Part shown: positions 43,681 to 61,755 of the stretch, in pieces
Layout of the letters: each line of letters starts with the position of its first letter
Numbering within the stretch: the stretch's first letter is position 1
Source of the DNA: Xanthomonas arboricola
GTDB taxonomy: Bacteria; Pseudomonadota; Gammaproteobacteria; Xanthomonadales; Xanthomonadaceae
Assembly (NCBI RefSeq): GCF_003353015.1
Contig: NZ_QREM01000007.1
Location: 806,044-870,043 of the forward strand
Direction of reading: 5' to 3'
Length of the DNA: 64,000 bases
Notes under the pieces: generated by a model
What the model saw: only the letters and a program-made list of their open reading frames with translations
Told to the model about the DNA's origin: nothing
Databases searched by the model: none
Translations under genes and position numbers: made by a program

Positions 43681-44739
43681 TCAACCACCACGCAGGGTTC
43701 TTGCCGGATCGAAATCGATCCCGGTAATAAAGCGGCGCCCAGCGTGCGCCTTGATGTGCACCACGATATCGATGGTCATACGCAGCAGGCGTTTGATCAC
43801 CTCGAATTCCAGCCCGGAGCCTTCGTTGGACGCCTTCACCATGAGCGCAAGCTGGTCCCAGGTCTGTTCAACGCTGCCGGCATGGCAGCTGGTGATCGAA
43901 CCAGGATGGCCAGATGCGCAATTACGGATGAAATAAAACGATTCATCGCCACGCAACTCGGCCAGGATGATTCGATCCGGCTTCATGCGCAGGCAAGCCT
44001 CCATACAACTCTTGGCAGTCACATTACTCGCACTCTGGCCGCCTTTCGAGTACAGCAGGTGCACCGAATTGGGCTGACTGATGAAGAGCTCGCGTGCGTC
44101 TTCAATGGTGACCAGGCGTTCCTCGTTCGGAATGTGATTGACCAAGGCCTTCATGAAGGTGGTCTTGCCGCTACCGGTTGCACCGGCAACCACAACGTTC
44201 TTCTTGTAAAGCACTGCTTTCTTGAAGAACTCCGAGTACTCCTTGTTGCGACGCAACTCGAGTAGTTCGCGATCGTGATCGCTGACATCGGCAGCCTGCT
44301 CGAGCACCTGATCAAAAAATCCGTCGCTGGTGTACTGCTCGAGGGTCTTGGTGTGTTTGGAGGGCAGGCGAATCGTGATCGAGACCTTGCCGGCATCGCA
44401 GGCAGGCGGAATGACGAACTGCGCGCGCTGTCCCGTTGGAAAGGTCAGAGAGACCACCGGATCAGCATCGGTGATGCGCTGCCCGGTGTTGCTTTCGTTG
44501 ACGACCGCCGTACAGAACTGCCTGGCCCGATCAAAGGTCAGCGACGGCACATCCATGCGTTGCCAGCCATTGATTGTCTCCAGATACAGCTCGCCGGGAC
44601 GATTGATGCAAATTTCCGTGACTTCGGGCGAATTCAAGTAGTCCAGGATCCCCAGGACGGAATACTGGTAATCCAGGAAATCATTCGAGATCCGCGCAGT
44701 CGGAGAATCGTCGATCGTCGTGGCGGTCGTCGCGCTCAC
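43681..44739 (-). CDS. virB11: VirB11, T4SS traffic ATPase
   Basis: 352 aa, hexameric VirB11/PulE-type ATPase. N-terminal domain, then Walker A VAGATGSGKTTFMKAL near residue 180, Asp box LVTIEDARELF, Walker B LRGDESFYFIRNC and His box SCHAGSVEQTWDQL. It energises substrate transfer and pilus dynamics at the cytoplasmic face of the inner membrane. Overlaps the virB10 stop by four bases. Confidence 0.97.
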   Translation of the reverse strand: MSATTATTIDDSPTARISNDFLDYQYSVLGILDYLNSPEVTEICINRPGELYLETINGWQRMDVPSLTFDRARQFCTAVVNESNTGQRITDADPVVSLTFPTGQRAQFVIPPACDAGKVSITIRLPSKHTKTLEQYTSDGFFDQVLEQAADVSDHDRELLELRRNKEYSEFFKKAVLYKKNVVVAGATGSGKTTFMKALVNHIPNEERLVTIEDARELFISQPNSVHLLYSKGGQSASNVTAKSCMEACLRMKPDRIILAELRGDESFYFIRNCASGHPGSITSCHAGSVEQTWDQLALMVKASNEGSGLEFEVIKRLLRMTIDIVVHIKAHAGRRFITGIDFDPARTLRGG

Positions 44740-45926: not shown

Positions 45927-46690
45927 TTTTGCTTGTTCCTTCGCAGACCGACGACATTATCGCCATGACGAACTACCAGGAAGGGGTAAGTTCCATGAAC
46001 GATCAAGGTATTACCCTCAACGGTCGTATTCACGAGAAAGTCCTCGCTATGCTCTTTCTCACGAGCAAACACCGCCGGAAAGTTACCCGTAGGAAATCGT
46101 GTTAAATCCATATTGATGTAAGTGAACTTACCATCATCGTAGACCCGGCTCGGAATCAACCAGGACTTCTTGGTTCGCGTAGCATAGTCATAGTCATAAT
46201 AGTAGCGACGATCCTTGAGAATCTTCGCATTCAATAGAGGACCATCCTTAGCAGCCGCAGCATCCTCGACATTATTGAAGCTCGTATCCTTTGGGTAACT
46301 GAATACGACTTTATACTGCACACCTGCCTGCTTGGCCTGCTCCAGGCGCTGCCAATCGGTCGCAACGACCTTTAGCTCGAGAATATAAGAATGCGTCGCG
46401 GTACGAATCATCATGTTCGTATCGACATCGACATTCTTGGGCTTCAAATAGAAGACATTTTCACGACGTGTCAGCTCCCAGCCTCCGGTGAAACCCGTGC
46501 TGTAGTCAAGAATCTTTTCATTGGGACTGAGTTCGATCTGGGTGGTGATGCCCAGTCCGGTACGCACCTGATAGATACGGTCGGGTGCGTACTCATATTC
46601 TTGAACGACCTGGGCAGCAGCCGAGAATGCGCACAGTACAAGTGGCAGTGCTGCAGCCAATGCCGCCCTGTAGGGGTTAGAGGGTTTCAT
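45923..46690 (-). CDS. virB9: VirB9, T4SS outer-membrane complex protein
   Basis: 255 aa. Signal peptide (LAAALPLVLCAFSAAAQ), N-terminal domain (YAPDRIYQVRTGLGITTQIE) and C-terminal beta-sandwich (RVYDDGKFTYINMDLTRFP; TLIVHGTYPFLVVRHGDNVV). It binds VirB7 and VirB10 to form the ring layer. Overlaps virB8 by four bases. Confidence 0.97.
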   Translation of the reverse strand: MKPSNPYRAALAAALPLVLCAFSAAAQVVQEYEYAPDRIYQVRTGLGITTQIELSPNEKILDYSTGFTGGWELTRRENVFYLKPKNVDVDTNMMIRTATHSYILELKVVATDWQRLEQAKQAGVQYKVVFSYPKDTSFNNVEDAAAAKDGPLLNAKILKDRRYYYDYDYATRTKKSWLIPSRVYDDGKFTYINMDLTRFPTGNFPAVFAREKEHSEDFLVNTTVEGNTLIVHGTYPFLVVRHGDNVVGLRRNKQK

Positions 46691-47727
46691 CGACCGCTTG
46701 CTCCATTGACATTGTTCGGCATCCCTTGGGGTTGAATCGTGGGCTGGACTTGAATTTGACCGGCCGGCTGGGGCTGTGCCTGACCTGGGTATCCCGGCTG
46801 CTGCTGGACCGGGACACTACCTGGCGCTGCCGGCGTGCCCTGCTGCAACGGAACACCGGCTGGCGCTGCAGCGCCAGCTGCATTGGGATCAACCACGCCA
46901 GGGGTCATCGGTTGCTGGTAGGCCGGGGCCTGTGGTGCTGCCTGCGCTTGCGTGCTGATCGCGGACGGCGCGGCGGGCAATGCCGAATAATCGTTATCGA
47001 CACGGTAATCAGTTACCCGAAAACCCAGGGGATTCTCCACCCTGAGGCTGTCATTCATCTCAAGATTATCCTGGTAAGCAAACCCCAGCGTCGCGATCTT
47101 GTTGTCCAGGAGCGTGGTTACAGTGGATGTCTTGTCGTAGACATTCCGCTGAAAGCGTACAGTCGCACCAGTATAAGCCTTACCCTTGCCACCAATAAGG
47201 GTAATGCTAAGGATGTTGATGCGGATTGCCCGCAATCTGCCATAGGTATTGAAAGGTCTCGCTGGGTTGTTGCCGGCATGCAACGTGCGATATTCGGAAA
47301 GCACATTCGTCGCTGCCATCGCGGCAACTGTGTTCCAATCACGATCACCAATCGTGGACGCATCAAATGACTCGCGCGCCAGAATGAAACGCGCGATATT
47401 GCTGCGTGCCAATGCTTCACTAGTACTGATAGTGCGTCCGCCGTAATTCGCTTCGAGCTTGGCGATGGTACTGGTACCCGAATAAGCATCTGCCATGACC
47501 AGGTACGGCACCTTCTCCTTCAGCGGCAACATGTAGTAATAGCCGCCTGCAGTCATGACAGTCACCAACATTGACAAACTGGCCACCGTCCATGCGCGCT
47601 TTTCACTGCGGCGTGCGAGATCGGCGATGCTGACCTCGTAGTTCACCGCTTTCTGGACGGCCGCACCAACCTGGGCGGAACCGTCCTTTTCACTCACCTT
47701 CTTACGCAACATGTCGAGATCCGTCAC
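46687..47727 (-). CDS. virB8: VirB8, T4SS inner-membrane assembly protein
   Basis: 346 aa. Cytoplasmic N terminus, one membrane helix near residues 48-65 (ASLSMLVTVMTAGGYYYML) and the NTF2-like periplasmic domain up to about residue 240. After that comes an unusually long Pro/Gln/Ala-rich tail of about 95 residues (PQAPAYQQPMTPG ... QPTIQPQGMPN), which is probably disordered. VirB8 nucleates assembly. It is separated from virB7 by 111 bases. Confidence 0.95.
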   Translation of the reverse strand: MTDLDMLRKKVSEKDGSAQVGAAVQKAVNYEVSIADLARRSEKRAWTVASLSMLVTVMTAGGYYYMLPLKEKVPYLVMADAYSGTSTIAKLEANYGGRTISTSEALARSNIARFILARESFDASTIGDRDWNTVAAMAATNVLSEYRTLHAGNNPARPFNTYGRLRAIRINILSITLIGGKGKAYTGATVRFQRNVYDKTSTVTTLLDNKIATLGFAYQDNLEMNDSLRVENPLGFRVTDYRVDNDYSALPAAPSAISTQAQAAPQAPAYQQPMTPGVVDPNAAGAAAPAGVPLQQGTPAAPGSVPVQQQPGYPGQAQPQPAGQIQVQPTIQPQGMPNNVNGASGR

Positions 47728-47838
47728 CGTGAGGCCTTGTCAGGCCTGAAACTATCGCCGCGACAAGCGCGGACACATGGGAGGTGTGAACTGGCTCGCC
47801 GCCCGGATACCTGAGCGTACCGGATCAGCAATCAGCCC

Positions 47839-48258
47839 TTAGAGCTTGGCTCCAGCCGATACCGGTACCGGCTGTACCAGCAGCTTGTTGGCGGAGACCG
47901 AAACCGACACGCCTTGCGCGGCGTACACCGCGCTGAGCTCCGTGGCAGCTTGCTGCACACTGGTGGTGCTGATACTGGAAACCGGGCCGATCAGGGTGTA
48001 ATCCGAAGGCAGGTTGTAGGACAGCTGCATGTTGGAATCGGCGGCCCACCGTTCCAGCATCGTCTTCAACGTGCCATCCATCGGCGTGGCCTGGTACGTG
48101 TAGGAGGTGTAGAGCGGAATTTCAGTCGGGGCTTCGTCAAAGTGATTGACGTGCTTCCAACGTCCACCAAAATCGGGAGCGGGCTTGGTCGCGCAGGCCC
48201 CGACCAAGGCAGCGACTACCAAGACCAGCGACAGCTTGGACACATACATCGGATTCAC
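47839..48258 (-). CDS. virB7: VirB7, outer-membrane lipoprotein with N0-like domain
   Basis: 139 aa, long for VirB7. Lipobox LVGAC (Cys near residue 22), a VirB9-binding segment (KPAPDFGGRWKHVNHFDEA) and then a C-terminal globular domain of about 80 residues. In X. citri VirB7 this domain is an N0 fold like those of secretins (established), and the sequence here is collinear. The GTG start at 48258 has GGAG 8 bases upstream; an ATG three codons on is the alternative. Confidence 0.93.
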   Translation of the reverse strand: MNPMYVSKLSLVLVVAALVGACATKPAPDFGGRWKHVNHFDEAPTEIPLYTSYTYQATPMDGTLKTMLERWAADSNMQLSYNLPSDYTLIGPVSSISTTSVQQAATELSAVYAAQGVSVSVSANKLLVQPVPVSAGAKL

Positions 48259-48455
48259 TCTGACTTCTCCAACTCATGAGATTTCGGGCTTGAGACAGAT
48301 AGCACGACGACCCCGCTCACCTTTGGGTGGCGGAGGGAATCTGCCTTCGATGACTCGGTCGAGCACGCATGCCCGCCCGAACCAGTCCACACAGGCCGGT
48401 GGGCGTCCCGCATACGGGCAACGGATAAAAATGAATACGCAGAAGAACCATCCAT
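48255..48455 (-). CDS. Small uncharacterised ORF coupled to virB7
   Basis: 66 codons. ATG at 48455 with AGGAG 7 bases upstream, and its TGA overlaps the virB7 GTG as GTGA. Residues are Ser/Arg-rich (MDGSSAYSFLSVARMRD start, KSHELEKSE end) with no recognisable domain or membrane segment. Good translation signals and coupling suggest it is translated, perhaps as a leader ORF for virB7. Lack of any family match by eye keeps confidence modest. Confidence 0.4.
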   Translation of the reverse strand: MDGSSAYSFLSVARMRDAHRPVWTGSGGHACSTESSKADSLRHPKVSGVVVLSVSSPKSHELEKSE

Positions 48456-48597
48456 AGCCTTACTCCTGTACGACCCCGTCCGGCGCCGCCCCCTTAACAA
48501 AAAATCAACAATGCGCAAATTCTCGGCCACTTTGCCCTTAACGAGCACATGAGTCAAGAATTACCCGCCCCTCTGCCAAGTCGTAATGTGACAGTCA
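48259..48597. promoter_or_regulatory. virB operon promoter region
   Basis: 339 bp between virD4 and virB7. It contains the small ORF (48255-48455), a TTGACT hexamer on the minus strand at 48557-48552 that could serve as a -35, and a CRP/Clp-type site at its upstream edge. No repeat matching the CpxR box (GTAAA-N5-GTAAA) was seen. Confidence 0.55.
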
Positions 48598-48602
48598 TCA
48601 CA
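48587..48602. promoter_or_regulatory. Perfect CRP/Clp-type site TGTGA-N6-TCACA
   Basis: TGTGACAGTCATCACA matches the CRP-family consensus at all ten defined bases. It overlaps the virD4 stop and lies about 40 bp before the TTGACT hexamer of the virB7 promoter region. Clp, the Xanthomonas CRP homologue that responds to cyclic di-GMP, uses such sites. Confidence 0.6.
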
Positions 48603-50271
48603 CCATGATAGCGAGCGTTTTCACGTCGGTCTTTGGCAGCAAACGCGCGGTGAAATATCGATCTTCGTAGTAGCGGATCTTGTCGCATTTGACCGGGTGC
48701 GGGATGCCCTCGTACAGGAACACCTCCTTTTCGTTGCCCATCGCCTTCAGCTCCTGCGGAAGCATCAGCGCACGTCGCTCCTCGGAAATACTTCGGGTCG
48801 TTTCCCTGCCTCGGGTGACGTTCTTCTTCTTGATGGTGGTGTAGCCCAACATCTCGGAGTAGTCGTTCGCGTCCTGCTGCTCTCGTGGCGCATACAGGAT
48901 CTGCAGCGCATGGTTGGTGATGATGGTGCGCGACAGGTCCTTGCCGTAGGTCGCGTCCAGCTGCGCCATGCTCTGGATGATGGGCAGTAGACGCAGGTTG
49001 TAACCCGCCATGTAGGCGACTGCGGTGGCAATGATGTCGACCTTGCCGATCGAGGTGAATTCGTCCATCAACAGCAGGCACTGGTATTTCAGCTCCGGGT
49101 TGGACTTCGGCAGCTCGCGCGTGTTGAGGTTGATGATCTGGCTGAAGAGCAGATTGATGATGAGCCGGCTTTCGGCCAGCTTGTTGGGCTGGATGCCGAT
49201 GTAGATCGTCATCTTCTTCTTGCGCAGATCGGTGAGCAGGAAATCATCCGCGCTGGTCGCCGCATCCAGGACCGGATTGATCCACGCGTTGAGCGGCTCC
49301 TTCAGGGTGCCCATGATGGACGCAAACGTCTCGTCGGCCTGTGACAGCATGTTGGCGAATGCCGAGCGTGCATTGCCGCTGAGGAACCGGCGCTCGGAGA
49401 GCGACTTGAGGTACTTCTTGAGGTCTGTGCCATCTCCGGACGAGAGGCGGTAGATGCCGCCAAGCGTGGGAGCCCCTGCCCCACCCGGGAAGCCGAGCGA
49501 CACCTCTTCGTCCTGGTTTTCGAACAGATACAGGGCAAACGCCATGAACGCGTTCCGCGCCTGACTGACCCAGAATTTCTGGTCGTCCGATCCATCCGGA
49601 TACAGCATGGCGGCGATGCTCATCAGATCCGACACCCGGAACGCCGGATCGCTGGACACATAGGTCAGCGGATTCCAGCGATGGGTACGACGATCCTCCG
49701 CAAAGGGATTGAAGAGGAACACCTCATGCCCCTGACTGGCGCGCCAACCGCTGGTGAGGTCGAAGTTCTCCTGCTTGATGTCCAGGACCACCACCGACTC
49801 CTGATACTCGAGCAGGTTGGGAATGACCACGCCCACGCCCTTGCCGGAGCGCGTCGGCGCGGCGAGGATCACGAACTGCTGCCCGCTCAGCCGTACAAGC
49901 TTGCCGTTGAACTTGCCCACGACAATGCCATTGCCACTCGGCTTGAACAGACCGTGCTTGGAAAGGTCTGCCGCCCCGGCAAAGCGCGCATCACCATGCA
50001 GCGCCCGTGCCTTCGGCTTGACCAGGAGCACGACCGTGATGGCCCAGATGATCCCGGGCAGACCAAAGCCGAGAATGCCGGACATCTTGATCTTGGTTGC
50101 GTAAGGCGCCACTTCCGGTAAGCCCAGCGCCTTGACGTAGCGGTAGTAGGTATCCCACGCGTACAGCCCGGTATCGAGCCGCAACAACAGCAGCGTCAGA
50201 TATCCGGACAGAAAATACCCGACAAGCAATGTCACCAAGGTGGCGATTGCGATTACTTTGGCTTTGGACAC
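48598..50271 (-). CDS. virD4: VirD4, T4SS coupling protein
   Basis: 557 aa. Two N-terminal membrane helices (residues 6-30 and about 64-85), then the TraG/VirD4 ATPase domain with Walker A APTRSGKGVG near residue 139 and Walker B LLMDEFTSIG. The all-alpha domain between them in X. citri binds XVIPCD-bearing effectors. No effector gene is in this window. GTG start (MSKAKVIAI). Confidence 0.97.
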   Translation of the reverse strand: MSKAKVIAIATLVTLLVGYFLSGYLTLLLLRLDTGLYAWDTYYRYVKALGLPEVAPYATKIKMSGILGFGLPGIIWAITVVLLVKPKARALHGDARFAGAADLSKHGLFKPSGNGIVVGKFNGKLVRLSGQQFVILAAPTRSGKGVGVVIPNLLEYQESVVVLDIKQENFDLTSGWRASQGHEVFLFNPFAEDRRTHRWNPLTYVSSDPAFRVSDLMSIAAMLYPDGSDDQKFWVSQARNAFMAFALYLFENQDEEVSLGFPGGAGAPTLGGIYRLSSGDGTDLKKYLKSLSERRFLSGNARSAFANMLSQADETFASIMGTLKEPLNAWINPVLDAATSADDFLLTDLRKKKMTIYIGIQPNKLAESRLIINLLFSQIINLNTRELPKSNPELKYQCLLLMDEFTSIGKVDIIATAVAYMAGYNLRLLPIIQSMAQLDATYGKDLSRTIITNHALQILYAPREQQDANDYSEMLGYTTIKKKNVTRGRETTRSISEERRALMLPQELKAMGNEKEVFLYEGIPHPVKCDKIRYYEDRYFTARLLPKTDVKTLAIMV

Positions 50272-51084: not shown

Positions 51085-51132
51085 GAGTGGTGGGCGGTAC
51101 AGGGTTCGAACCTGTGACCCCTACCATGTCAA
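51085..51132. repeat. attL: 48-bp repeat of the tRNA-Val 3' end
   Basis: Identical to 61678-61725. It contains the last 46 bases of tRNA-Val, including the T arm and CCA, in minus orientation. Identity stops exactly at 51084/51133. Confidence 0.95.
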
Positions 51133-51166: not shown

Positions 51167-51247
51167 CCTGCAAAGCCTTGATTAAACGTCTCATTGGATG
51201 CGAGTGCGTCCATATACGTTTGCTTTTTTGCAGGAGCCTTGCAGGAC
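51167..51247. promoter_or_regulatory. Putative integrase arm sites, left end
   Basis: TTGCAGGAG at 51228-51236 and TTGCAGGAC at 51239-51247, spaced by 11 bp, plus an inverted CCTGCAA at 51167-51173. The same pair occurs at the right end (61593-61612). The last copy is just before the integrase ATG. Confidence 0.6.
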
Positions 51248-51251
51248 AGCC

Positions 51252-52397
51252 ATGCCGAAGATCAACCGCGAGCCGCTAACGCGGCGTTCCGTCGATAGCG
51301 CGAAGGCGACAGGCAAAGCCTACCGGATGCGCGATGCCACCGTCCCCGGCCTGGTGCTGCGCGTCTCCGCCACCGGCGCGCGCTGCTGGGCCATCGTCTG
51401 GGGCCGCGGGCAGGAACGCACCTTCGGCGACTACCCCGCCCTGCCGCTGGAGGCAGCACGCGAGCGCGCCAGGAAGCTCGCCGGCGAGATCGCCGCGCAC
51501 GGCGCGCCGCTGGCGGTGATCGAGGCGGCCAAGCCCAAGCCGGCCACGCTGGGCTCGTTCGTGCGTGAGCATTACGGCCCATGGGCCAAGGCCAACCAGA
51601 AGGCCGGCCAGGCCACCATCGATGCGCTCGCCGCCCACTTCACCGAGATCGTAGACAAGCCGCTCGCCGCCATCTGCGCGTTCGACCTGGAGCGGTTCAA
51701 GTCGCAGCGCTTGAAGGCCGGCATCAAGCCGGCGACGGTGAACCGCGACCTGTCCCGGATCCGCGGCGCGCTGTCCCGCGCGGTCGACTGGGGAATGCTC
51801 GAGCAGCACCCGATGCGCACCGTGAAGCAGGCCAAGGGCGCCGACGACAGCCGCGTGCGTTACCTGACACACGAGGAGGAACGCCAGCTGCGCGCCGGCC
51901 TGCAGCAGCGCGAGCACGACCGCCGCGCGCCTCACCTGCTGCCGATGGTGCTGGTGGCGCTCAACACCGGCATGCGCCGCGGCGAGCTGCTCGGCCTGGA
52001 CTGGGCAGACGTCAACCTGCCAGGCAAGCTCGTCACCGTGACGGTGGCCAACGCCAAGAGCCGCAAGGCCCGCCACATACCGCTCAACAGCGAGGCGCAC
52101 GACACGCTCGCGCGCTGGGGCGGCGGGGGCGCCGGTACCGGCCTGGTGTTCCCTTCGCCCAGGACAGGCCGGCGCATGGACAACATCAGTAGCAGCTGGG
52201 AGGAGCTGTGCGACACGATCGCCCTGCCCGGCTTCCGCTTCCACGACCTGCGGCACACCTTCGCCAGCCGCCTGGTCATGGCCGGCGTCGACCTCAACAC
52301 CGTGCGCGAGCTGCTGGGGCACTCCGACATCCGCATGACGCTGCGCTATGCACACCTGGCGCCGGACAAGCTGGCCGAGGCAGTGGCCAGGCTCTGA
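51252..52397 (+). CDS. int: Tyrosine integrase (phage/P4 type)
   Basis: 381 aa. N-terminal DUF4102-like arm-binding domain (residues 1-95, KATGKAYRMRDATVPGLVLRV), SAM-like core-binding domain (about 100-195) and catalytic domain with Arg242 (TGMRRGELLGL), Lys269, His331-x-x-Arg334 (FHDLRHTF), His357 (LLGHSD) and Tyr366 (LRYAHL). All catalytic residues are present. It would recombine the tRNA-Val att sites. It lies at the att copy farthest from the intact tRNA. Confidence 0.95.
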   Translation: MPKINREPLTRRSVDSAKATGKAYRMRDATVPGLVLRVSATGARCWAIVWGRGQERTFGDYPALPLEAARERARKLAGEIAAHGAPLAVIEAAKPKPATLGSFVREHYGPWAKANQKAGQATIDALAAHFTEIVDKPLAAICAFDLERFKSQRLKAGIKPATVNRDLSRIRGALSRAVDWGMLEQHPMRTVKQAKGADDSRVRYLTHEEERQLRAGLQQREHDRRAPHLLPMVLVALNTGMRRGELLGLDWADVNLPGKLVTVTVANAKSRKARHIPLNSEAHDTLARWGGGGAGTGLVFPSPRTGRRMDNISSSWEELCDTIALPGFRFHDLRHTFASRLVMAGVDLNTVRELLGHSDIRMTLRYAHLAPDKLAEAVARL

Positions 52398-52706: not shown

Positions 52707-53315
52707 TCAACGGTTTGCAGCCGACCTGGCCGCTACAGCCTTTTGGTATGCCGCGAGCAATGGCCCCTTGTTCTCAACTCCGAGAATCTCGCGAATAGGC
52801 ACGTGCGACGGTTTTCCACCCCTCGAAGTCACTGCAATAACCTCTTCTCGGATCTTCTCCCAGCATGCGAATGCAGGCTCCCAATAGAGCCTCTGGAGTT
52901 CGTTATGGGCCTCATCGGGTGAAAGCGAGCGCGCTAGTTCGCCTTCAAGTGCGCTCGCATCTGGGAAGGTCCATACGGCCTCGCAGGTCATAGCGTCTTC
53001 AAAGGCGAGGAGTGTCGGCGCGCTCATGAAGACATGGAACAAATTGCGCGGTTCATGCGGATCGCCCGATATGCCAGCGAGCATGTCACCAATAGTGAGC
53101 CCTCCATTATCGACGTTGAAAGAGTTGAGGCCGACCTGCAAGGCCCACTCCATCGATTGGCTAAGCGAGCGGTGCTGCGCTTTTGCGAGTAGCTCCAGGC
53201 CATAGAGCAGAGACGGTCTCAAGGACAAGTTAACTCGTTTCAGTTTTTCGCCTTCCACGCGGGGCGGACGGCCACCCTTGGACCTGCTCGGCCCCTCTAA
53301 ATTTTCGCTTGACAT
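52707..53315 (-). CDS. Ribbon-helix-helix-like regulator, uncharacterised
   Basis: 202 aa. The N-terminal part (RPPRVEGEKLKRVNLSLRPS, then LLYGLELLAKAQHRSLSQSM) has the strand-helix-helix pattern of Arc/MetJ-type DNA-binding proteins. The remaining 130 residues are acidic with no family I recognise. It is divergent from the HTH gene at 53392 and separated by 76 bp carrying an inverted repeat, the usual layout of a repressor with its operator. The base composition is less GC-rich than the host's. Confidence 0.7.
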   Translation of the reverse strand: MSSENLEGPSRSKGGRPPRVEGEKLKRVNLSLRPSLLYGLELLAKAQHRSLSQSMEWALQVGLNSFNVDNGGLTIGDMLAGISGDPHEPRNLFHVFMSAPTLLAFEDAMTCEAVWTFPDASALEGELARSLSPDEAHNELQRLYWEPAFACWEKIREEVIAVTSRGGKPSHVPIREILGVENKGPLLAAYQKAVAARSAANR

Positions 53316-53335
53316 GCTTAGATTCTTCCAGTTCA

Positions 53336-53369
53336 ATGTGTTTCGTGGGTTTATTACACACAAACACAT
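53336..53369. promoter_or_regulatory. Inverted repeat between divergent regulators
   Basis: ATGTGTTT (53336-53343) and AAACACAT (53362-53369), perfect 8-bp arms 18 bp apart, inside an AT-rich divergent promoter. It is a likely operator for one or both flanking regulators. Confidence 0.6.
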
Positions 53370-53391
53370 ACAACATAAGACAGGAAGAACT

Positions 53392-53604
53392 ATGTCACAG
53401 CAGGCCCCCGTAGAGAAGCTCAGCTATACCGTCGAACAGGCCATGGGCGCCACCGGCATGAGCCGCAGCGCGTTTTACAAGGCAATCAGCAAGGCTGGAT
53501 TGGTGACCTTCAAGCTGGGCAAGCGCCGCATGGTGTCGGCGCGCGCGCTGCAGCAGTTCATCGAGGCGCAGGAGCGCGAAGCATCCCGGCGGAGTGTCGC
53601 TTGA
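53392..53604 (+). CDS. Excisionase/AlpA-like HTH protein
   Basis: 70 aa. Helix-turn-helix of the HTH_17/AlpA type: YTVEQAMGATGMSRSAFYKA (about residues 11-30), then FKLGKRRMVSARALQQFIEA. Such proteins act as excisionases or activators of integrase in satellites and prophages. Shine-Dalgarno AGGA is 8 bases before the ATG. First gene of the rightward operon. Confidence 0.8.
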   Translation: MSQQAPVEKLSYTVEQAMGATGMSRSAFYKAISKAGLVTFKLGKRRMVSARALQQFIEAQEREASRRSVA

Positions 53605-53921: not shown

Positions 53922-54115
53922 GCGCGACTGTCCTCACCTTCCCGCCGGCGCGCATCGTCCGCCGAGCACCCCGCCCTGCCCCCAGTCGTGTCGATGCCCT
54001 CGTGGCGGTGCTGGAGCGGATCGCCAGCGATCCCAGCAGCGCATTCGCGCGGCGGCGGATGCAGCTGCTTGCCCAGGCCAACGCAACGCCAACGAGTGAG
54101 TGTGATGCCCGATGA
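53918..54115 (+). CDS. Hypothetical phage protein
   Basis: 65 aa, basic, with a helical C-terminal half (DALVAVLERIASDPSSAFAR). No domain recognised. It overlaps the genes on both sides (ATGA with the upstream gene; 11 bases with the replication gene), which supports that it is translated as part of the operon. Confidence 0.6.
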   Translation: MSATVLTFPPARIVRRAPRPAPSRVDALVAVLERIASDPSSAFARRRMQLLAQANATPTSECDAR

Positions 54116-54530
54116 ATACCGCAAGCCAATCGCGGCGAACAAGCGAGCCAAGTTCAAGGGCAGGAGCAAGGGTGCACCGTTCCTGGCGATCGAGCACCGC
54201 ATCGCTGACAGCGAGGAGTTTGGCCGCCTCTCCGGCAACGCAGTCAAGCTGCTGCTCGAACTGGCCAGACAGTACCGGCCGGGCAAGAACGGTGATCTCA
54301 GCATCCCGTGGTCGCTGCTGCAGGACCGTGGGTGGCGCAGCAAGGCGACGGTACACGCCGCGAAGCTCGAGCTACTGGAGTCTGGTTGGGTCGTCGAAAC
54401 GCGCAAAGGCGGGAAGCATCTGTGCAGCCTGTACGCCATCAGCTACTACGCGATCGATGAGTCAGAAAAGCACACAGAGCGCCCGACAACTGTGCCGCTC
54501 AATCTCTGGCAGCAAAAACGCAATGCGTAG
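54105..54530 (+). CDS. Probable replication-initiation protein with winged helix
   Basis: 141 aa. The middle (LSGNAVKLLLELARQYRPGK and IPWSLLQDRGWRSKATVHAA) looks like a winged helix-turn-helix, followed by a beta wing (SGWVVETRKGGKHLCSLYAI). Related short proteins occur in Xanthomonas/Xylella prophages and resemble plasmid Rep or Orf-type initiators. Immediately after its stop come iterons and a DnaA box, supporting a replication role (inference). Confidence 0.65.
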   Translation: MPDEYRKPIAANKRAKFKGRSKGAPFLAIEHRIADSEEFGRLSGNAVKLLLELARQYRPGKNGDLSIPWSLLQDRGWRSKATVHAAKLELLESGWVVETRKGGKHLCSLYAISYYAIDESEKHTERPTTVPLNLWQQKRNA

Positions 54531-54734: not shown

Positions 54735-55016
54735 ATGAGCACTGAAGCACTCGCATGGGCATTCACCCAACTCGCACCCACCCCTGAATCCAAGTTGCTG
54801 CTGGTGCTGCTGGCAGACATTGCGGATCCCGAGGGCCTGGTTCATTCGCCAGACCACAACCGGCTGGCCACCTACTGCTGCACCGATGCACTCGGCGTGC
54901 AGTGCGCACTGGCAGACCTCTACTCAACCGGCCTGGCAAGCAAGCGATGGGACGGCATCTGCCTGCCTGTCCCCCCGATGGACTACGGACGTACGGCATT
55001 GCGGAGACGAGCATGA
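54735..55016 (+). CDS. Helix-turn-helix-like phage protein
   Basis: 93 aa. A helical N-terminal half (LAWAFTQLAPTPESKLLLVL) and a second block (NRLATYCCTDALGVQCALAD) typical of small winged-helix proteins that follow the Rep gene in such elements. Function unknown. Its end overlaps the next gene (ATGA). Confidence 0.65.
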   Translation: MSTEALAWAFTQLAPTPESKLLLVLLADIADPEGLVHSPDHNRLATYCCTDALGVQCALADLYSTGLASKRWDGICLPVPPMDYGRTALRRRA

Positions 55017-55339
55017 GCACCAGCACCCACACACCAACTGACAGAGCCGCATGGTTGGACACGGCCGCACGCGGTGCCCTGACGGCATACCTGGAGCGCA
55101 CTGGCGCCAACAGCGAAGCACGCGAGGAAGTCGCAACGCTACCCATCGCCACGGTGCTGCTGAGGCTCCCACGCGCCATGCGTTCGATCGTGGCCGCGGC
55201 GAGCCTGCTGCACTACGGCGAGCTGGTGCATCCCGGACTGGCTGAGCCGGAGCCCAGCCATTGGCGAGCACCGCGCCGCACCGCGAAGACCAGCCATCGA
55301 CGCGCCGGCAAGGTCGCCGCGTGCGGACCTGATCGATGA
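55013..55339 (+). CDS. Hypothetical phage protein
   Basis: 108 aa, helical throughout the middle (AREEVATLPIATVLLRLPRA; IVAAASLLHYGELVHPG), with a basic C-terminal tail. No domain recognised. It is coupled to the preceding gene by a four-base overlap. Confidence 0.6.
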   Translation: MSTSTHTPTDRAAWLDTAARGALTAYLERTGANSEAREEVATLPIATVLLRLPRAMRSIVAAASLLHYGELVHPGLAEPEPSHWRAPRRTAKTSHRRAGKVAACGPDR

Positions 55340-55344
55340 CAGCC

Positions 55345-55420
55345 GAGCGGCCCCGGGGGGGCGTGCGAAAAATAGAAATCGCCCCCACCGGACACCGGCC
55401 GCTCAGCCAAATTTTCGCAC
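55345..55420. promoter_or_regulatory. Interleaved inverted repeats before the packaging genes
   Basis: Arm 1 GAGCGGCC (55345-55352) pairs with 55397-55404; arm 2 GTGCGAAAAAT (55363-55373) pairs with 55411-55420 with one bulged base. The arms alternate, so the folded form would be pseudoknot-like. Its position before a Nu1-like gene is where a packaging (cos/pac) site could lie; this is inference. Confidence 0.4.
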
Positions 55421-55477
55421 CGTCAAAATTAGCTTTTGAAAATATCGGGAGGCACTTTGGACCCTGAGAGGCCCACC

Positions 55478-55888
55478 ATGCATGGGGTTCCGCTTGACCG
55501 GGCCGCGGCCGAGCTAGGCATTCCCACGGGAACGCTGCGGCGCTGGGTGCGGCAAGGCTGTCCGGTTGTCCACCGGGGCCACCGCGGGCGCGGCCATGCG
55601 GCGCTGGTCGATCCCGCACAGGTGCTGCAGTGGCGGGAGGCCGGCGCCCGCCAGCAGATTTACCTTGAGCTCGCCAGCGCGGTACCCACCGTAATCGCGC
55701 ACGCGGCATGCAATTCAATGCGCCTCGCCAATGGGATCGACAAGAAACGGCTCGCAGGTGTGCAGGCGGCGACCTGGTACGTGGCGACCAACGCTGTGCT
55801 GGATCACCTGCGCGAGCGCTGCCCCGCAGTGCCGGAACTGGCCGTAGTGCCGGACGAAATCGAGCAGCTCCGTAAAATCGCACGATAG
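55478..55888 (+). CDS. Nu1-like DNA-packaging/terminase small subunit candidate
   Basis: 136 aa. N-terminal winged helix-turn-helix of the Nu1/MerR-like type (VPLDRAAAELGIPTGTLRRW) followed by a helical region (ARQQIYLELASAVPTVIAHA) that could mediate oligomerisation. In lambda-type phages such proteins bind cos and recruit the large terminase. No large-subunit gene follows. Start at ATG 55478 with GAGAGG upstream; a TTG at 55436 is a poorer alternative. Confidence 0.6.
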   Translation: MHGVPLDRAAAELGIPTGTLRRWVRQGCPVVHRGHRGRGHAALVDPAQVLQWREAGARQQIYLELASAVPTVIAHAACNSMRLANGIDKKRLAGVQAATWYVATNAVLDHLRERCPAVPELAVVPDEIEQLRKIAR

Positions 55889-55946
55889 CGATTGATTTTA
55901 GGCGGTCTCGGTACGGTGTTCCCATCAACCACCGGAGACGCCCCAG

Positions 55947-56939
55947 ATGGACCCCATGCAGCATGCTGCACTTTCCCGCGCCCGCACTGCTCTCGACGTG
56001 GCGATAGCCAACGAATGCAGCTCTGCTAAGGCGAAGGCTTTCGTTGAAATTGCTCTGGGCATGATGCTCAACGGCAAGAACTTCCGCGCCGCCATCGCCT
56101 CTCATCCATCTGCGCTGGTCCAGAAGGCTGTGGCGGAATCCACCTTCGGCGAGGTATGGCAGACCCCAAATGCTGCGGCGCTGGCGGCCAGCTACATCGG
56201 TAGCATCGCCGAGGGCTCGCTGCTCGACCAGATCATCACCTATGGTTCCTTGCTACCGCTCAACGTCCCCGGTGTGCTGGTCGGCAGCGGTTACAGCGCC
56301 AACGTCACTAAGGAAGGCGACCCGAAGGTCGTCAAGAACTTGGAGCTCAGCACGACCGACGTGGAGCTGCACAAGGCCGCTGCGATCGTGGTGATGACGC
56401 AGGAGCTTGTTCGCGCAATCGGCGGGCAGGCCATTTTCGAGAGCGAGCTCCGCAAGAGCGTCACGCGCGCTGTCAATTCATCGGTGCTGGCCCAGTTGCT
56501 GGACAGCGCGCCGAAGTATGTCGCGCCGAGCGACGACGCTCTGGTCAACCTCCGTGCCGGCATGTTTGCTGCTGGACCATCCGAAGGGTACGTAGTCGCC
56601 GCGCCGGCGATCGAGGTTATAGACCTGGCCACGCGACTGGAAAATCGCGGCGGCATGGGCCTGCGCGGCGGCACCTTCATCCCAGGAGTTCAAGTCGTCG
56701 CCATGGACGAAATCTCGGACATGTACGTCATCCCCGCTTCGCGTATCGCCGTCCGCGATCAGGGGCTCGAGGTGCGCAGCGCAGGGCATGCAACGGTCAA
56801 CATGGTCGATACGCCCACCAGCCCCTCGCAATTGGTGTCGCTGTTCCAGACCAACAGCATTGGCCTGCTCGCAGAGAGAAATTTCCACCTGGCGGCCGCT
56901 TCGCCCATGGTGGTTGTTGGCGAGGATCCGAACCCATGA
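55947..56939 (+). CDS. HK97-type major capsid protein
   Basis: 330 aa. Phage_capsid family pattern: KAVAESTFGEVWQTPNAAAL, QIITYGSLLPLNVPGVLVGS (N-arm/E-loop region), TTDVELHKAAAIVVMTQELV (spine helix region) and ALVNLRAGMFAAG. It lacks the long N-terminal delta domain of HK97 and no prohead protease is nearby, so assembly without cleavage is expected. It precedes the portal gene, opposite to the usual order. Shine-Dalgarno GGAG upstream. Confidence 0.8.
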   Translation: MDPMQHAALSRARTALDVAIANECSSAKAKAFVEIALGMMLNGKNFRAAIASHPSALVQKAVAESTFGEVWQTPNAAALAASYIGSIAEGSLLDQIITYGSLLPLNVPGVLVGSGYSANVTKEGDPKVVKNLELSTTDVELHKAAAIVVMTQELVRAIGGQAIFESELRKSVTRAVNSSVLAQLLDSAPKYVAPSDDALVNLRAGMFAAGPSEGYVVAAPAIEVIDLATRLENRGGMGLRGGTFIPGVQVVAMDEISDMYVIPASRIAVRDQGLEVRSAGHATVNMVDTPTSPSQLVSLFQTNSIGLLAERNFHLAAASPMVVVGEDPNP

Positions 56940-57262
56940 GCATCGGGACTGCCTACCAGGAGGCGCTGAAAGCGTTGGCTGAGCAGGTTGCCCGCGCATA
57001 CCGCGAGGACTGCTGCAGCTTCCACGTGTCCGCCGGACTGATTCAAGGCAACACCATGATCGCGGTCACTGCCACGTTCGATGCAACTGGCACAGAGTGT
57101 TGGGTGCCACTGGCTTTGGGCGGCGATCCCTGGACGGATGAAAGGCGCGCGCGCATCGAACACGATGCTCGGGCGGTGATCTCCCAGCGGCTCAGCATCG
57201 AAGAGGGTGCTGCTTACATCGTTCGTCAGTGCATGCGTGAGGTGCTCGATGGGTATCGCTGA
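56936..57262 (+). CDS. Hypothetical protein between capsid and portal
   Basis: 108 aa. A helical N terminus (YQEALKALAEQVARAYRED) and a beta-rich middle (VSAGLIQGNTMIAVTATFDA). No family recognised. It overlaps the capsid stop by four bases and the portal start by 14, so it belongs to the same transcript. Confidence 0.65.
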   Translation: MSIGTAYQEALKALAEQVARAYREDCCSFHVSAGLIQGNTMIAVTATFDATGTECWVPLALGGDPWTDERRARIEHDARAVISQRLSIEEGAAYIVRQCMREVLDGYR

Positions 57263-58712
57263 TCGACTGATGTCGCTGATCACTCGACGCGCGCCGGAAG
57301 CTGCAACAGCGGTCGAGTCTCCTGGCGGTGGTGGGTGGCGGAATATCCTCGAACCGTTCACCGGCGCTTGGCAGCGCAACCAGTCGATCGCCGCACCCAG
57401 AGAGCTGGAGACGTACAGCACGGTCTACGCATGCATGTCGCGCATTTCCAGCGATATCGGCAAGCTGCCTTTCACGCTCAAACGGCGCGATGCAAACGGC
57501 CTTTGGGGCGCTGACCGGCACCAGACCATCACCCCGTTGCTACGGCGGCAGAATGCCTACCAGACGCCCGCGCAGTTCCGCGAGGCCTGGATCCTATCCA
57601 AGCTTAGCCACGGCAACACCTACGTGCTGAAAGGCAGGAACAGCAGCGGTGCTGTTACGCATCTGTGGGTGCTAGATCCCAATCGCGTTGAATCGATGAT
57701 CGCCCCAGAGGGCGACGTCTTCTACCGGCTGCGATATGGCCGGCCGGAGAACCTGCTGCCCGCAAAGTATTCGGGCGATGAGCTGATCGTGCCCGCCAGC
57801 GAGATCATCCACGATCGAGAGATGGCGCTTTTCCATCAGCTGATTGGTGTGGGCCCGTTGGATGCTGCCACCCTGGCTGCAAACAAGAACATCCGCATCC
57901 AGCAAGATGCCACCAAATTTTTCACGAACGGAGCGAACCCGGGCGGCATCCTGACGGCACCCGCGGGCATGACGGAAACCGACGCACAGGCGGTCAAGGA
58001 ATACTGGAACACCAACTTCCAAGGAGCGAATGCTGGCAAGGTCGCGGTCATCGGCGCCGACATGAAGTTCACGGCCTTCGCGTTCAAGGCGATCGACTCG
58101 CAGATGGTGGAGCAGCTGCGCTATTCCGATGAGCAGATTGCGCATGCCTTCGGCATTCCCCCGTTTAAGGTGGGCATCGGCAGTATCCCCGCCGGCATGA
58201 AGGTCGACGACCTCAACCAGATGTATTACGCCGACGCGCTGCAGGCGCGCATCGAGGCGATGGAGGACTGCCTGGATCAGGCGCTAGGCCTGGGGGATGA
58301 GATCGGTGTGGAGCTCAATCTGGAGCCGCTCCTGCGCATGGATCTCGGCAAGCAGGCAGAAGTGCATGCAGCGCTCACCGGCGCTGGCATCGAAGCGCCC
58401 AACGAAGCACGCCGCCGTTTCGGACTCTCTCCGCTCACTGGCGGCGACAGCGTCTACCTGCAGCAGCAGAACTACAGCCTAGAGGCCCTCGCGCGCCGCG
58501 ACAGCTCACCCGATCCGTTTGCCACCGGTGGCACTGGTGAGCGCGGCCTGAGCCCTGCCAGCTTCCTCACCAGGGAGCTGCCGAGAGGCCAGCCCAAGCA
58601 ACGCGCCAAGTTCAACCACGACGATGGTAGCTGGGATGTGGAGATTGCTCCCAATCGCTGGCTGCATCGCATCCACTCCGCTCAATTCGAAAATTCGGAG
58701 CCGGCACGATGA
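57249..58712 (+). CDS. HK97-family portal protein
   Basis: 487 aa, full length. Family blocks are STVYACMSRISSDIGKLPF near residue 57, FREAWILSKLSHGNTYVLK, the clip/stem region VGPLDAATLAANKNIRIQQD, YSDEQIAHAFGIPPFKVGIG and LEPLLRMDLGKQAEV. The portal forms the dodecameric DNA gate and docks terminase. An intact portal without a large terminase in the element implies use of one from elsewhere, or loss. Confidence 0.92.
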   Translation: MGIADRLMSLITRRAPEAATAVESPGGGGWRNILEPFTGAWQRNQSIAAPRELETYSTVYACMSRISSDIGKLPFTLKRRDANGLWGADRHQTITPLLRRQNAYQTPAQFREAWILSKLSHGNTYVLKGRNSSGAVTHLWVLDPNRVESMIAPEGDVFYRLRYGRPENLLPAKYSGDELIVPASEIIHDREMALFHQLIGVGPLDAATLAANKNIRIQQDATKFFTNGANPGGILTAPAGMTETDAQAVKEYWNTNFQGANAGKVAVIGADMKFTAFAFKAIDSQMVEQLRYSDEQIAHAFGIPPFKVGIGSIPAGMKVDDLNQMYYADALQARIEAMEDCLDQALGLGDEIGVELNLEPLLRMDLGKQAEVHAALTGAGIEAPNEARRRFGLSPLTGGDSVYLQQQNYSLEALARRDSSPDPFATGGTGERGLSPASFLTRELPRGQPKQRAKFNHDDGSWDVEIAPNRWLHRIHSAQFENSEPAR

Positions 58713-59305
58713 TGGAGATTCCAAAGGTACGTACTGTCCGCCTCTACGGCGTGCTGCGCGCCAAGTTCGGCAAGGAGTTCCGGCTGGCAGTGGCATCGGC
58801 AGCCGAGGCCATCCGCGCGCTGTCGGTGCAGCTGCCAGGCTTCCAGGCATTCCTGATGGGAGCCAAGGACCGCGGCCTGACATTCGCCGTGTTCAACGGC
58901 CGGCGCAACCTTGCCGAGGATCAGCTACATGACCCGCCTGGAGATGACGCAATCCGCATCGCGCCGGTGCTGCAGGGTTCCAAGCGCGGTGGCGTGCTGC
59001 AGACCATCGTCGGGACGGTCTTGGTCGTCGCCGGAGCAGTTCTAACTGCGTACGGCATCGGGTTAATTGGTATTCCCCTGGTCAACGCCGGAGCAGCAAT
59101 GGTGATCGGCGGAGTGGTGCAGATGCTCTCCCCGACGCAGAAGGGCTTGGGCACGCAGGACAGCCCGGACAACCGCCCGAGCTACGCATTCAATGGGCCG
59201 GTGAACGTGCAGGCGCAAGGTAATCCCGTGCCACTCGCTTACGGCCGGTGCTGGATAGGATCGGCTGTCATCAGCGGAGGCATCTTCGCAGAGGATCAAA
59301 CCTGA
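58709..59305 (+). CDS. Tail assembly protein, lambda TapI-like
   Basis: 198 aa. N-terminal ubiquitin-like domain (TVRLYGVLRAKFGKEFRLAV), a glycine-rich hydrophobic stretch (about residues 96-145, GGVLQTIVGTVLVVAGAVLT) and the C-terminal PVALTYGR-like block (NPVPLAYGRCWIGSAVIS). In lambda, gpI acts with K and J in tail-tip assembly; neither K nor J is present here. Overlaps the portal stop and the next start. Confidence 0.85.
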   Translation: MMEIPKVRTVRLYGVLRAKFGKEFRLAVASAAEAIRALSVQLPGFQAFLMGAKDRGLTFAVFNGRRNLAEDQLHDPPGDDAIRIAPVLQGSKRGGVLQTIVGTVLVVAGAVLTAYGIGLIGIPLVNAGAAMVIGGVVQMLSPTQKGLGTQDSPDNRPSYAFNGPVNVQAQGNPVPLAYGRCWIGSAVISGGIFAEDQT

Positions 59306-61578
59306 TGGGTACGGCCGGAAGTATTGTCGTTGATTTACTCATGCGGACCGGCTCGTTCGAGACCGACACCGATCGCGCGAGCAAGCAGGTGCGCAAGTTC
59401 GGCAAGGACTCACAGAACGCCGCCGTCGACGTCGGTGCGGCATTCGGCAAGATCGGTGGCGCGGTGGTGGGCGGCCTGGCCGTGGCCGGTACTGCGATCC
59501 TCAACTGGACGCGCCAGCTGGCCACCGCTTCCGGGGAGATCGAGCGCTTCGCCCGCCTGTCCGGCACCAGCGAGCAGACGTTCCAGCGGCTCGCCGCTGG
59601 CGCGTCGACGGTCGGCATCCAGCAGGACAAGCTAGCCGACATCTTCAAGGACACCCAGGAAAAGGTCGGGCAGTTCCTACAAACCGGTGGAGGCGAGCTC
59701 CAGGACTTCTTTACGAAGATCGCGCCCAAGGTCGGGCTGACGGCCAAGGAGTTCCGTAACCTCAGCGGTCCGGAGGCGCTGGGCAAGTATTACAGCGCGC
59801 TCGAAAAGGCCGGCGTGCCGCAAGCCGACATGGTGACCTACCTTGAGGCGATCGCGAACGATGCAACGCTACTCGCGCCACTGCTGGCCCAGAACGGCGA
59901 TGGCTTTCGCAAGTGGGGTGACGAGGCCGAGAGGCTCGGCGTCGTGCTCGACGCACAAACCATGAAGTCCATGAAGGAGTTGCGCACCCAGACTGCCGAG
60001 ATGGATCTGGCCTTCCAGGGTCTGAAGAATCAGGTAGGTGCCGAGCTACTGCCACAAGTCCAGGAGCTGACGGCATTCATGAGCAGCGACAGCACCAAGA
60101 CCGCAATCGTCAACCTGACGATGTGGATAGGTGGCCTGACCGCCGAAATGGCAAACGGCACCATCATGCTGGTGAACTATACTGGGAAGCTAAGCGAGCT
60201 GCGCGCACTGGACACCGGTAGCGCGCTGGGCGACGCCAGCACGCAGGGTTTGAACGACCAGTTAGCGCGGGTGCAAGAGCGGCTGAACAATGCCCGCAGC
60301 CGAACTACCGGTAGTTTCGGCCTACCGCTGACCGACGGGCAGGAGGTAAAGCGGCAGCAGCAAATCAACGATCTCGTCGCCGAGCGCGTGCGGCTACAGC
60401 GCGAGATCACTAGGCGCAATCGGCCCGAGGTCAAGCTATTGGAGAACGGCGCGCTGCCCGACGACGCGGCGCTGGTGCGACCCGCCAAGACAGCGAGCTT
60501 CGAATACACAGACAAGGAAGCAGGCAAGGCTGCGGCTGAGCTGCAGAAGACCTATACCGCGATGTCGGCGGAGCTGGCCAAGCAACTGGCGCTCACCGGC
60601 CAGAACACCGAATACGCCAAGGTGCTGTACGAGCTGCAGAGCGGATCGCTTAAGGGCATCACCGGCGCGCAGGCGCAGAGCCTGCTGCAGCTGGCAGAGA
60701 TCAAGGACGTCAACGAGGACATCGCGGCGATCTACGGGGCGACCGACGAGAAGGTCAACAGCTACCTCGCGAGCCTGGAACGGGAACTGGCGCTGCACGG
60801 GCAGATCGGCGAGGCGGCCAAGGTTGCCTATGACATCCGCACCGGCGCGTTCGGCGCGCTGAGCGAGGAGCAGGCCCGGCTGCTGGAGAGCTACGCTCAG
60901 ACCAAAGACGCCATGGACGACTTCGCCGCGATCTACGGCGAGGGCTACGAAAGCATGATCGCCAAGACCAAGGAAGGCAGCGACATGATGAAGGAGTTCG
61001 GTCTGGAGGCCGCCCGCAGCATGCAGGGCGCGTTCTCCGACTTCCTGTTCGACCCGTTCGATGAGGGGCTGGGTGGCATGGTTGAGGGCTTCGCCAAGAC
61101 CATACAGCGGATGATGGCGGATCTCGCGGCTTCGCAGCTGCTGAAAGCACTCGGCAGCATGGCGGCCAGTTCCGGCAACAGCTGGGTAGCTGCGATCGGT
61201 GGCGCCATCGCCGGCGGCCGCGCGGGCGGCGGCCCTGTCGCTGCTGGTTCGATCTACGAGGTGGGCGAAGGCGGCAGGCCGGAGATGTACGAAGCCGGCG
61301 GCAGGACCTACATGATCCCGGGCAACCAGGGCGGCCGCGTGGTGCCGATCACCGCAGGCCGCACGGTCGGCGACGTGACAGCCGGCGCGGCTGGTGGGGT
61401 TTCGGTCAACATCACCAATGTGATCAACAGCGACGGAACCACAACAACTACCACCGAGACTGACGAGAACGCGATGATGCGCGCGCTGACGCAGATGATT
61501 CAGCCGGTGGTGGTGCGCGTGCTCCAGCAGCAGATGCGACCGGGAGGCATCTTCTCGCCCGGCGGCGCTCGCGGATGA
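59305..61578 (+). CDS. Tail tape-measure protein
   Basis: 757 aa. Starts MGTAGSIVVDLLMRTGSFET, with a hydrophobic stretch (GGAVVGGLAVAGTAILNW, about residues 50-67), long helical repeats, and a lambda-type C-terminal domain (EAARSMQGAFSDFLFDPFDE; MMADLAASQLLKALG) followed by a glycine-rich tail. It would set tail length. Without tail-tube and tube-terminator genes here, a tail could form only with a partner phage. Confidence 0.88.
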   Translation: MGTAGSIVVDLLMRTGSFETDTDRASKQVRKFGKDSQNAAVDVGAAFGKIGGAVVGGLAVAGTAILNWTRQLATASGEIERFARLSGTSEQTFQRLAAGASTVGIQQDKLADIFKDTQEKVGQFLQTGGGELQDFFTKIAPKVGLTAKEFRNLSGPEALGKYYSALEKAGVPQADMVTYLEAIANDATLLAPLLAQNGDGFRKWGDEAERLGVVLDAQTMKSMKELRTQTAEMDLAFQGLKNQVGAELLPQVQELTAFMSSDSTKTAIVNLTMWIGGLTAEMANGTIMLVNYTGKLSELRALDTGSALGDASTQGLNDQLARVQERLNNARSRTTGSFGLPLTDGQEVKRQQQINDLVAERVRLQREITRRNRPEVKLLENGALPDDAALVRPAKTASFEYTDKEAGKAAAELQKTYTAMSAELAKQLALTGQNTEYAKVLYELQSGSLKGITGAQAQSLLQLAEIKDVNEDIAAIYGATDEKVNSYLASLERELALHGQIGEAAKVAYDIRTGAFGALSEEQARLLESYAQTKDAMDDFAAIYGEGYESMIAKTKEGSDMMKEFGLEAARSMQGAFSDFLFDPFDEGLGGMVEGFAKTIQRMMADLAASQLLKALGSMAASSGNSWVAAIGGAIAGGRAGGGPVAAGSIYEVGEGGRPEMYEAGGRTYMIPGNQGGRVVPITAGRTVGDVTAGAAGGVSVNITNVINSDGTTTTTTETDENAMMRALTQMIQPVVVRVLQQQMRPGGIFSPGGARG

Positions 61579-61677: not shown

Positions 61678-61725
61678 GAGTGGTGGGCGGTACAGGGTTC
61701 GAACCTGTGACCCCTACCATGTCAA
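61678..61725. repeat. attR: 48-bp repeat within tRNA-Val
   Basis: Second copy of the 48-bp direct repeat; it covers the 3' part of the intact tRNA-Val gene. Confidence 0.95.
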
Positions 61726-61755
61726 GGTAGTGCTCTACCGCTGAGCTAACCGCCC
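61681..61755 (-). tRNA. tRNA-Val (GAC)
   Basis: 75 nt on the minus strand. Acceptor GGGCGGT pairs with ACCGCCC, followed by ACCA encoded in DNA. The anticodon arm CTACC-TTGACAT-GGTAG gives GAC. The T arm contains GGTTCGAACCC. Intact, so integration left it functional. Confidence 0.96.

Follow-up and report, generated by a model that had tools for sequence, protein, structure and literature searches.

A 64-kb stretch of a Xanthomonas chromosome (G000:C1:806044-870043; the window) carries an integrated element of 10,593 bp (10.6 kb), the right half of which consists of six genes in the order Nu1-like, capsid, orf108, portal, TapI, tape measure. Judged by its gene content, this element is real, intact, mobile and helper-dependent, and it very probably moves as a parasite that borrows the motor and most of the tail of another phage. 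A first-pass annotation of this DNA had leaned in part on gene order and did not include the cos-like site, a likely helper lineage or the membership of TapI and tape measure in a helper pool. Here the packaging site and the likely helper lineage are added and the order argument is removed. The six genes, the packaging site and the attachment (att) repeats at the ends of the element are as follows.

51085-51132, no strand: attL, a 48-bp direct repeat, 100% identical to 61678-61725
55351-55442, plus strand: cos-like packaging site, with a G-run at 55355-55361, about 30 nt, GGACACCGGCCGCTCAG and TTTTCGCACCGTCAAAATT; cosN probably at about 55397-55406
55436-55888, plus strand: Nu1-like winged helix-turn-helix (HTH) protein, like the small terminase (TerS) or Rpp; probable start TTG 55457 or ATG 55478
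55947-56939, plus strand: HK97-fold major capsid protein, 330 amino acids (aa), with a short N-terminal leader; ratio of nonsynonymous to synonymous rates (dN/dS) 0.11-0.13
56936-57262, plus strand: orf108, between capsid and portal; 83-95% conserved; dN/dS 0.07-0.13
57249-58712, plus strand: portal protein; Phage_portal (PF04860) at 2.1e-75; 59-60% identical to prophage portals
58709-59305, plus strand: TapI, tail assembly protein I; phrog_32 at 5.7e-71 over its full length; 85-89% identical to prophage TapI
59305-61578, plus strand: tail tape measure protein, 757 aa; phrog_2854 at 2e-92; 84% identical over its full length to the tape measures of prophages L033 and L038
61678-61725, no strand: attR, a 48-bp direct repeat, overlapping tRNA-Val(gac) (61681-61755, minus strand)

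As expected of a satellite, the element is integrated, has ends defined by the att repeats, and has empty sites elsewhere. An identical 48-bp repeat also borders the elements of X. hortorum, the closest named relative to bear the element, and of genome G029. The att target was found in all 35 Xanthomonas genomes, single (empty) in 32 and doubled in the window genome, X. hortorum and G029. Thus, the element is mobile and the empty site is common.

Family scans of the element's open reading frames (ORFs) on both strands returned no large terminase (TerL), S78/ClpP protease, connector, HNH, tail-tube, tail-tip or lysis family, bearing out the earlier observation that large terminase, protease, tail tube, tail tip and lysis genes are missing. 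A scan of minus-strand and shadow ORFs likewise uncovered no hidden phage genes, and PADLOC, run on five element proteins, no defence genes. These absences bear on the proposal that the element is a new lineage of minimal, autonomous prophage, packaged by host functions. It does have its own integrase, putative repressor, replication gene, capsid and portal. However, it lacks the TerL, the complete tail (tail tube and tail tip are both absent) and the lysis gene of an autonomous tailed phage, and no phrog_2 or L033-type TerL match was detected in the draft genome. We therefore give this proposal next to no probability. Given the missing TerL, tail and lysis genes and the helper-type cos site, induction and packaging would depend on a helper. 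The other half of the original proposal has stood: the element is intact, under selection and mobile, brings an integrase and head genes of its own, and has to obtain everything else from elsewhere.

Another possibility is a decayed, grounded prophage whose terminase, protease and tail genes have been deleted. Most phage genes are indeed absent, and capsid-orf-portal is the order seen in ordinary phages. However, the six genes are intact and tightly packed, as first described, with four of five junctions overlapping by 1-14 bases and a gap of 58 bases between the Nu1-like and capsid genes. When compared with X. hortorum and with an IMG/VR relative, L005, all six had dN/dS values of 0.03-0.16, indicating purifying selection, and the window copy showed neither stops nor relaxed selection. 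Relatives with the missing genes in place would have pointed to recent deletion; the closest relatives lack these genes too, and in no close relative do terL and tail genes occupy the space between these flanks. The element has kept its exact att repeats as well as a cos-like site, while the sites are empty in most species. Another genus (G356) also has this head block, again lacking terL and protease, in a 9.2-kb element with a different integrase, located at a tRNA-Thr between exact 46-bp repeats. The G356 proteins are 63% (Nu1), 59% (capsid), 41% (orf108, in the same place) and 61% (portal) identical to those of the window, and this element showed no match to TerL, protease, TapI or tape measure. 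In X. hortorum, a transposase gene that reads as IS5-like lies inside the portal gene and splits it into two halves (L004:11936-13086); this disruption is particular to that copy. Decay is thus very unlikely.

Capsid before portal had been called unusual, but PAJU2 (annotated as terS, terL, fused protease-capsid, two small ORFs, portal), SOVA965 (protease, capsid, small ORFs, portal) and L033/L038 all natively have a capsid followed by small ORF(s) and a portal. Since ordinary siphoprophages have this order, it carries no weight as an oddity. What survives of the claim is that TapI upstream of the tape measure departs from those phages; the rest is ordinary.

The cos-like site lies just ahead of the six genes. 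Its motif, a G-run, about 30 nt and then GGACACCG, is also found upstream of terS in related phages. The pattern is expected by chance 0.03 times per 64 kb, and its sole occurrence in the window is 55351-55442. The core of the site (55389-55442) and the 54 bp immediately 5' of terS in L033 and L038 share 94% identity. L033 and L038 are two 43-kb IMG/VR prophages with full TerS-TerL-protease-capsid-portal-tail sets and other integrases. This core was the one strong match when satellites were compared with prophages outside genes, and it lies just upstream of the Nu1-like gene in all three satellites. In the records of PAJU2, SOVA965 and HK022, a G-run stands 40-48 nt before the genome end, and the D3 record ends ...GGACACCGCGCCCCCA/GGTC, with the same geometry as the window site; the record ends of these four phages are assumed, on the records' word, to be the physical cos ends. 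We infer that 55351-55442 is a D3/HK97-type cos site. Similar sites occur in G356 (after the portal), in G433 (upstream of a P27 terS) and in G029 (after its capsid).

The Nu1-like protein matches phrog_57 (7.7e-7) in its DNA-binding domain only, and lambda TerS chains in the PDB at an E-value of 0.004. It was further examined in a five-member alignment. Its likeness to lambda TerS, the small terminase looked for in a capsid-forming phage-inducible chromosomal island (cf-PICI), is confined to the winged-HTH domain. In the cos-rpp arrangement of Gram-negative phage-inducible chromosomal islands (PICIs), Rpp binds the helper TerS and steers TerL (PMC9026076). The window has the same layout, in that a winged-HTH gene of rpp type, which may have an rpp function, comes directly after a cos like that of the helper.

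The capsid gene was recognized through several routes. By a single-sequence hidden Markov model comparison its match is weak (phrog_617, E=0.01). Nevertheless, the protein could be aligned over its length with some 30 phage capsids, and a profile search retrieved solved capsid structures (best Bxb1, 2.5e-19; HK97, 0.003). Structure prediction gave a mean confidence (pLDDT) of 31 from a 4-sequence alignment and 62 from a 37-sequence alignment, and the latter model matched HK97-fold capsids in a fold search with E-values down to 1.8e-10. About 60 residues precede the conserved domain, versus about 130-150 in related phages, and a conserved lysine stands at the boundary; such a shortened leader might still be cleavable by a helper protease. 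No match was returned by tblastn of the capsid against phages, by megablast of the whole element, or by distant blastn of the capsid-portal region against plasmids. Downstream, orf108 had no family match in the family-model scans. Among the three satellites, capsid and portal share 86-98% identity, whereas their identity to the L033/L038 counterparts is 26% and 60%, respectively. The element has its own HK97-type capsid and its own portal, as cf-PICIs do.

The distance of this capsid from that of the prophages also fits remodelling of the kind carried out by Ccm, in which satellite capsid protein at special positions (for example, pentamers) shrinks helper capsids, while portal and tape measure replace helper parts piecemeal. 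The 26% identity to the L033 capsid resembles the 24% between Ccm and its helper's protein, and the element has no protease, just as none is known in SaPIbov5 (PMC8569155). Islands in G029, G197, G344 and G286 also have a capsid with no portal seen. However, the window element and G356 both carry a portal, the nucleator of the head, co-conserved with the capsid, and this fits a self-made procapsid better. We regard remodelling as unlikely.

The two tail genes compare differently. L033 and L038 share the order terS, terL, S78 protease, capsid, 94-aa ORF, portal, neck, tail tube, tape measure, tail-tip, TapI (position and visual inspection identified the neck and tip genes). Tape measure synonymous divergence (dS) between satellite and prophage, 0.61-0.72, equals the 0.70 between two satellites, and TapI behaves likewise. 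In a TapI tree, the three satellite copies formed one branch in 0% of 200 bootstrap trees; for the tape measure, the satellite copies did so in 12%. Between satellites, dS is 0.14-0.27 for the integrase and Nu1-like genes versus 0.69-0.94 for the tail genes. Since the head genes are close among satellites while the tail genes are as close to those of prophages, the most economical interpretation is that the satellite owns its head genes and swaps its tail genes with the helper pool. The content of L005 fits this reading, as it has no tape measure but encodes a gp10-like neck protein that shares 68% identity with its prophage counterpart. The L033/L038-type prophages are, by these comparisons, the likely helpers. 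Separately, the TapI of an ordinary Xanthomonas prophage of G005 (L138:12001-12603) shares 87-88% identity with that of the satellite, whereas the 1135-aa tape measure frame of this prophage matches at the C-terminus only.

In its original wording, the first-pass suggestion that the element sets tail length is doubtful: at 757 aa, the tape measure differs little in length from that of ordinary prophages (749 aa). A related idea, that a shorter tape measure would give shorter tails, had come from the longer tape measures of G005 and G009 and was dropped, since those of L033 and L038 are of the same length as the satellite's.

TapI and tape measure might instead be no particle parts at all but decoys directed against the helper as a form of defence, blocking or diverting its tail assembly. 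Tail-assembly inhibitors are carried by satellites and prophages (PMC11364771; PLE11 Rta, PMC12987554), and a tape measure so like the helper's could compete with it. Yet both genes are full length and strongly constrained (dN/dS 0.13-0.16 vs prophage alleles), as for working tail parts, and tmp deletion in phage-inducible chromosomal island-like elements (PLEs) reduces satellite transfer (PMC12987554). A decoy role appears quite unlikely.

We propose the following course of events. Upon induction of, or infection by, a helper, the element would excise and replicate. The Nu1-like protein, acting as a TerS or as an Rpp-like adaptor, would steer the helper large terminase to the satellite cos, and helper TerL would cut the satellite DNA and pump it into procapsids of satellite capsid protein assembled on the satellite portal. 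The helper would provide protease, neck and tail body, while satellite tape measure and TapI would enter or start tail assembly to yield chimeric tails, and the cell would be lysed by the helper. Four copies of the element approximate the helper genome in length (42.4 vs 43.5 kb), so that multimers in full-size heads are conceivable; the presence of a capsid and a portal in the element itself points to small heads.

Several observations weigh against this proposal. The element is known here from its sequence alone, and the model of its capsid reaches a pLDDT of just 62. In G356 and G029, the cos-like site does not adjoin a Nu1-like gene, and G433 carries a P27 TerS besides its Nu1-like gene; the Nu1-like protein may thus serve the capsid operon instead of packaging, and is perhaps no simple TerS. 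The absence of a tape measure from L005 means that this gene is not essential to the family, and part of the replication module (54735-55016) appears reduced. The helper status of L033/L038 is by inference only. The check for a helper prophage in the same genome, suggested at the outset, found none with the portal, the tape measure, the TerL family or the TerL of L033 as the query. No phrog_2 terminase or L033-type TerL was detected in this genome, a 24-contig draft searched with a model that misses some TerL, and no resident helper is therefore evident.

Taking both sides together, we hold with considerable confidence that the element is a cos-type, helper-dependent satellite that encodes a capsid and a portal of its own. 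We consider the full outline likely, in which an intact cos-type satellite has its own shell and portal and its own tape measure and TapI, and uses a helper's motor, protease and tail body. That the shell is built mainly of satellite capsid protein is fairly probable, whereas for chimeric tails the evidence is evenly balanced.

Related islands were sought with a capsid profile over 398 Xanthomonadales genomes, which are samples, and 10 had a match. The G433 island, beside a tRNA-Ala, combines Nu1 and capsid with a P27 TerS and an S78-like protease, and is the only relative in which a protease was seen; its Nu1-like gene, P27 small terminase and S78-like protease lie together at L163:10775-14472. 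G029 shares the integrase and att of the window but has a different capsid and no portal. Its element (L135:1201-10640), in which no portal or tail genes were found, has an integrase with a frameshift, a pair of toxin-antitoxin-like genes, a capsid of 473 aa (phrog_10), an anti-repressor and a cos-like site. Capsids in G197, G286, G344 and G368 are diverged, two of these islands having a P27 TerS, and the G286 and G344 islands are flanked by repeats at a tRNA-Ser. These relatives indicate that small, capsid-bearing, terL-less islands are recurrent in Xanthomonadales. Some also carry additional genes. At the right end of two elements is a minus-strand gene (L005:8963-9604 and L135:9926-10489; 213 and 187 aa; MAELxSGIDWGSVADWVSGIG...) that is probably cargo. 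The G197 capsid/TerS island encodes an OLD-family-like ATPase (L101:11817-13337; best PADLOC matches AriA and GajA, among others), a possible anti-phage cargo gene.

From left to right, the element begins with the integrase, a divergent regulator of Arc/ribbon-helix-helix (RHH) type, an HTH_17 regulator, a small HTH ORF and short replication ORFs, followed by the six genes. The named features of this left half are listed here.

51198-52397, plus strand: tyrosine integrase, probable start ATG 51252; Phage_integrase at 5.4e-31; dN/dS 0.05-0.12
52707-53369, minus strand: Arc/RHH-like regulator, likely start about 53309; weak matches to RHH_5 (0.057) and phrog_3431, Arc-like (0.019)
53278-53604, plus strand: HTH_17 excisionase/AlpA-type regulator; HTH_17 at 5e-6, phrog_66 at 1.4e-4
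53988-54530, plus strand: probable replication protein (DnaD/O-like winged helix); weak match to phrog_186 (0.011); same ORF in X. hortorum
54735-55016, plus strand: short replication-initiation ORF; N-terminal quarter of the phrog_1032 family, 4.3e-7; dN/dS 0.30-0.37

The Arc/RHH-like regulator is transcribed divergently from the rest, and L005 has a clear Arc-family regulator in the same place. The ORF at 54735-55016 may be a remnant. A 145-aa frame at 54902-55339 is improbable as a gene, because the aligned G029 frame has a stop codon. No primase was seen among the element's ORFs, in which the O/DnaD-like matches are weak. Outside the element, adjoining attL on its left, the minus strand at 43681-50271 holds a type IV secretion cluster, named by eye from translations: VirB11, VirB10, VirB9, VirB8, a VirB7-like lipoprotein and a VirD4-like ATPase.

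These results suggest that satellites can own the container without the motor, and they show that carrying a capsid but no terL is a durable strategy rather than a product of decay. Tail-assembly genes may pass piecemeal between satellite and helper. The idea of a satellite-encoded tape measure is extended to Xanthomonas, with identifiable putative helpers, and a checkable prediction follows: chimeric heads and tails, and fixed cos ends.

No Xanthomonas satellite was found in the open-access literature searched, which is weak evidence, subscription literature lying largely outside the search. Among known systems, the HK97/D3-like siphoprophages (L033, L038, PAJU2, SOVA965) share with the window element the order cos, (terS), capsid, small ORF(s), portal. 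L033 and L038 differ in having the packaging, head and tail genes that it lacks, and would be helpers and not the same element. SaPIbov5 resembles it in that no protease is known there and its Ccm is a diverged homologue of the helper's capsid protein, but the window element also has portal and tail genes and resides in another host phylum. The PLEs of Vibrio cholerae provide the experimental precedent for a satellite tape measure in chimeric tails (PMC12987554), and like the window element they encode a tape measure and a tail-assembly partner. In PLEs, however, the pair is the tmp-tac of a contractile-tail system and helper capsids are remodelled, whereas here the partner is TapI and the capsid is the satellite's own; the likeness is one of gene content.

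Gram-negative cos-type PICIs are similar in having a cos nearly identical to that of a putative helper, followed by a TerS-like winged-HTH gene of 136-150 aa, in their integrase-regulator-replication layout, and in their size of about 10 kb. PICIs are without structural genes, as stated for Gram-positive PICIs (PMC6092414). The window element differs from the Gram-negative ones in having capsid, portal, TapI and tape measure and in showing no primase. The cf-PICIs are likewise integrated satellites with their own capsid and portal and with tails from a helper, and some have putative tmp genes (PMC12987554, Extended Data Fig. 10b). They reportedly encode all head and packaging functions, including protease, connectors, both terminase subunits and HNH (PMC10690885). 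In contrast, the window element is without protease, TerL, connectors and HNH, and we therefore do not class it as a cf-PICI, although it is cf-PICI-like for its shell. Tentatively, as something possible rather than probable, we suggest a distinct class between cos-PICIs and cf-PICIs in Xanthomonadaceae and allied families. Its members would have their own shell and portal, reach the helper motor via a copied cos, and repeatedly swap in tail-interface genes (tape measure/TapI; gp10/TapI; none) from the circulating helper, so that their particles would be chimeric in both head machinery and tail.

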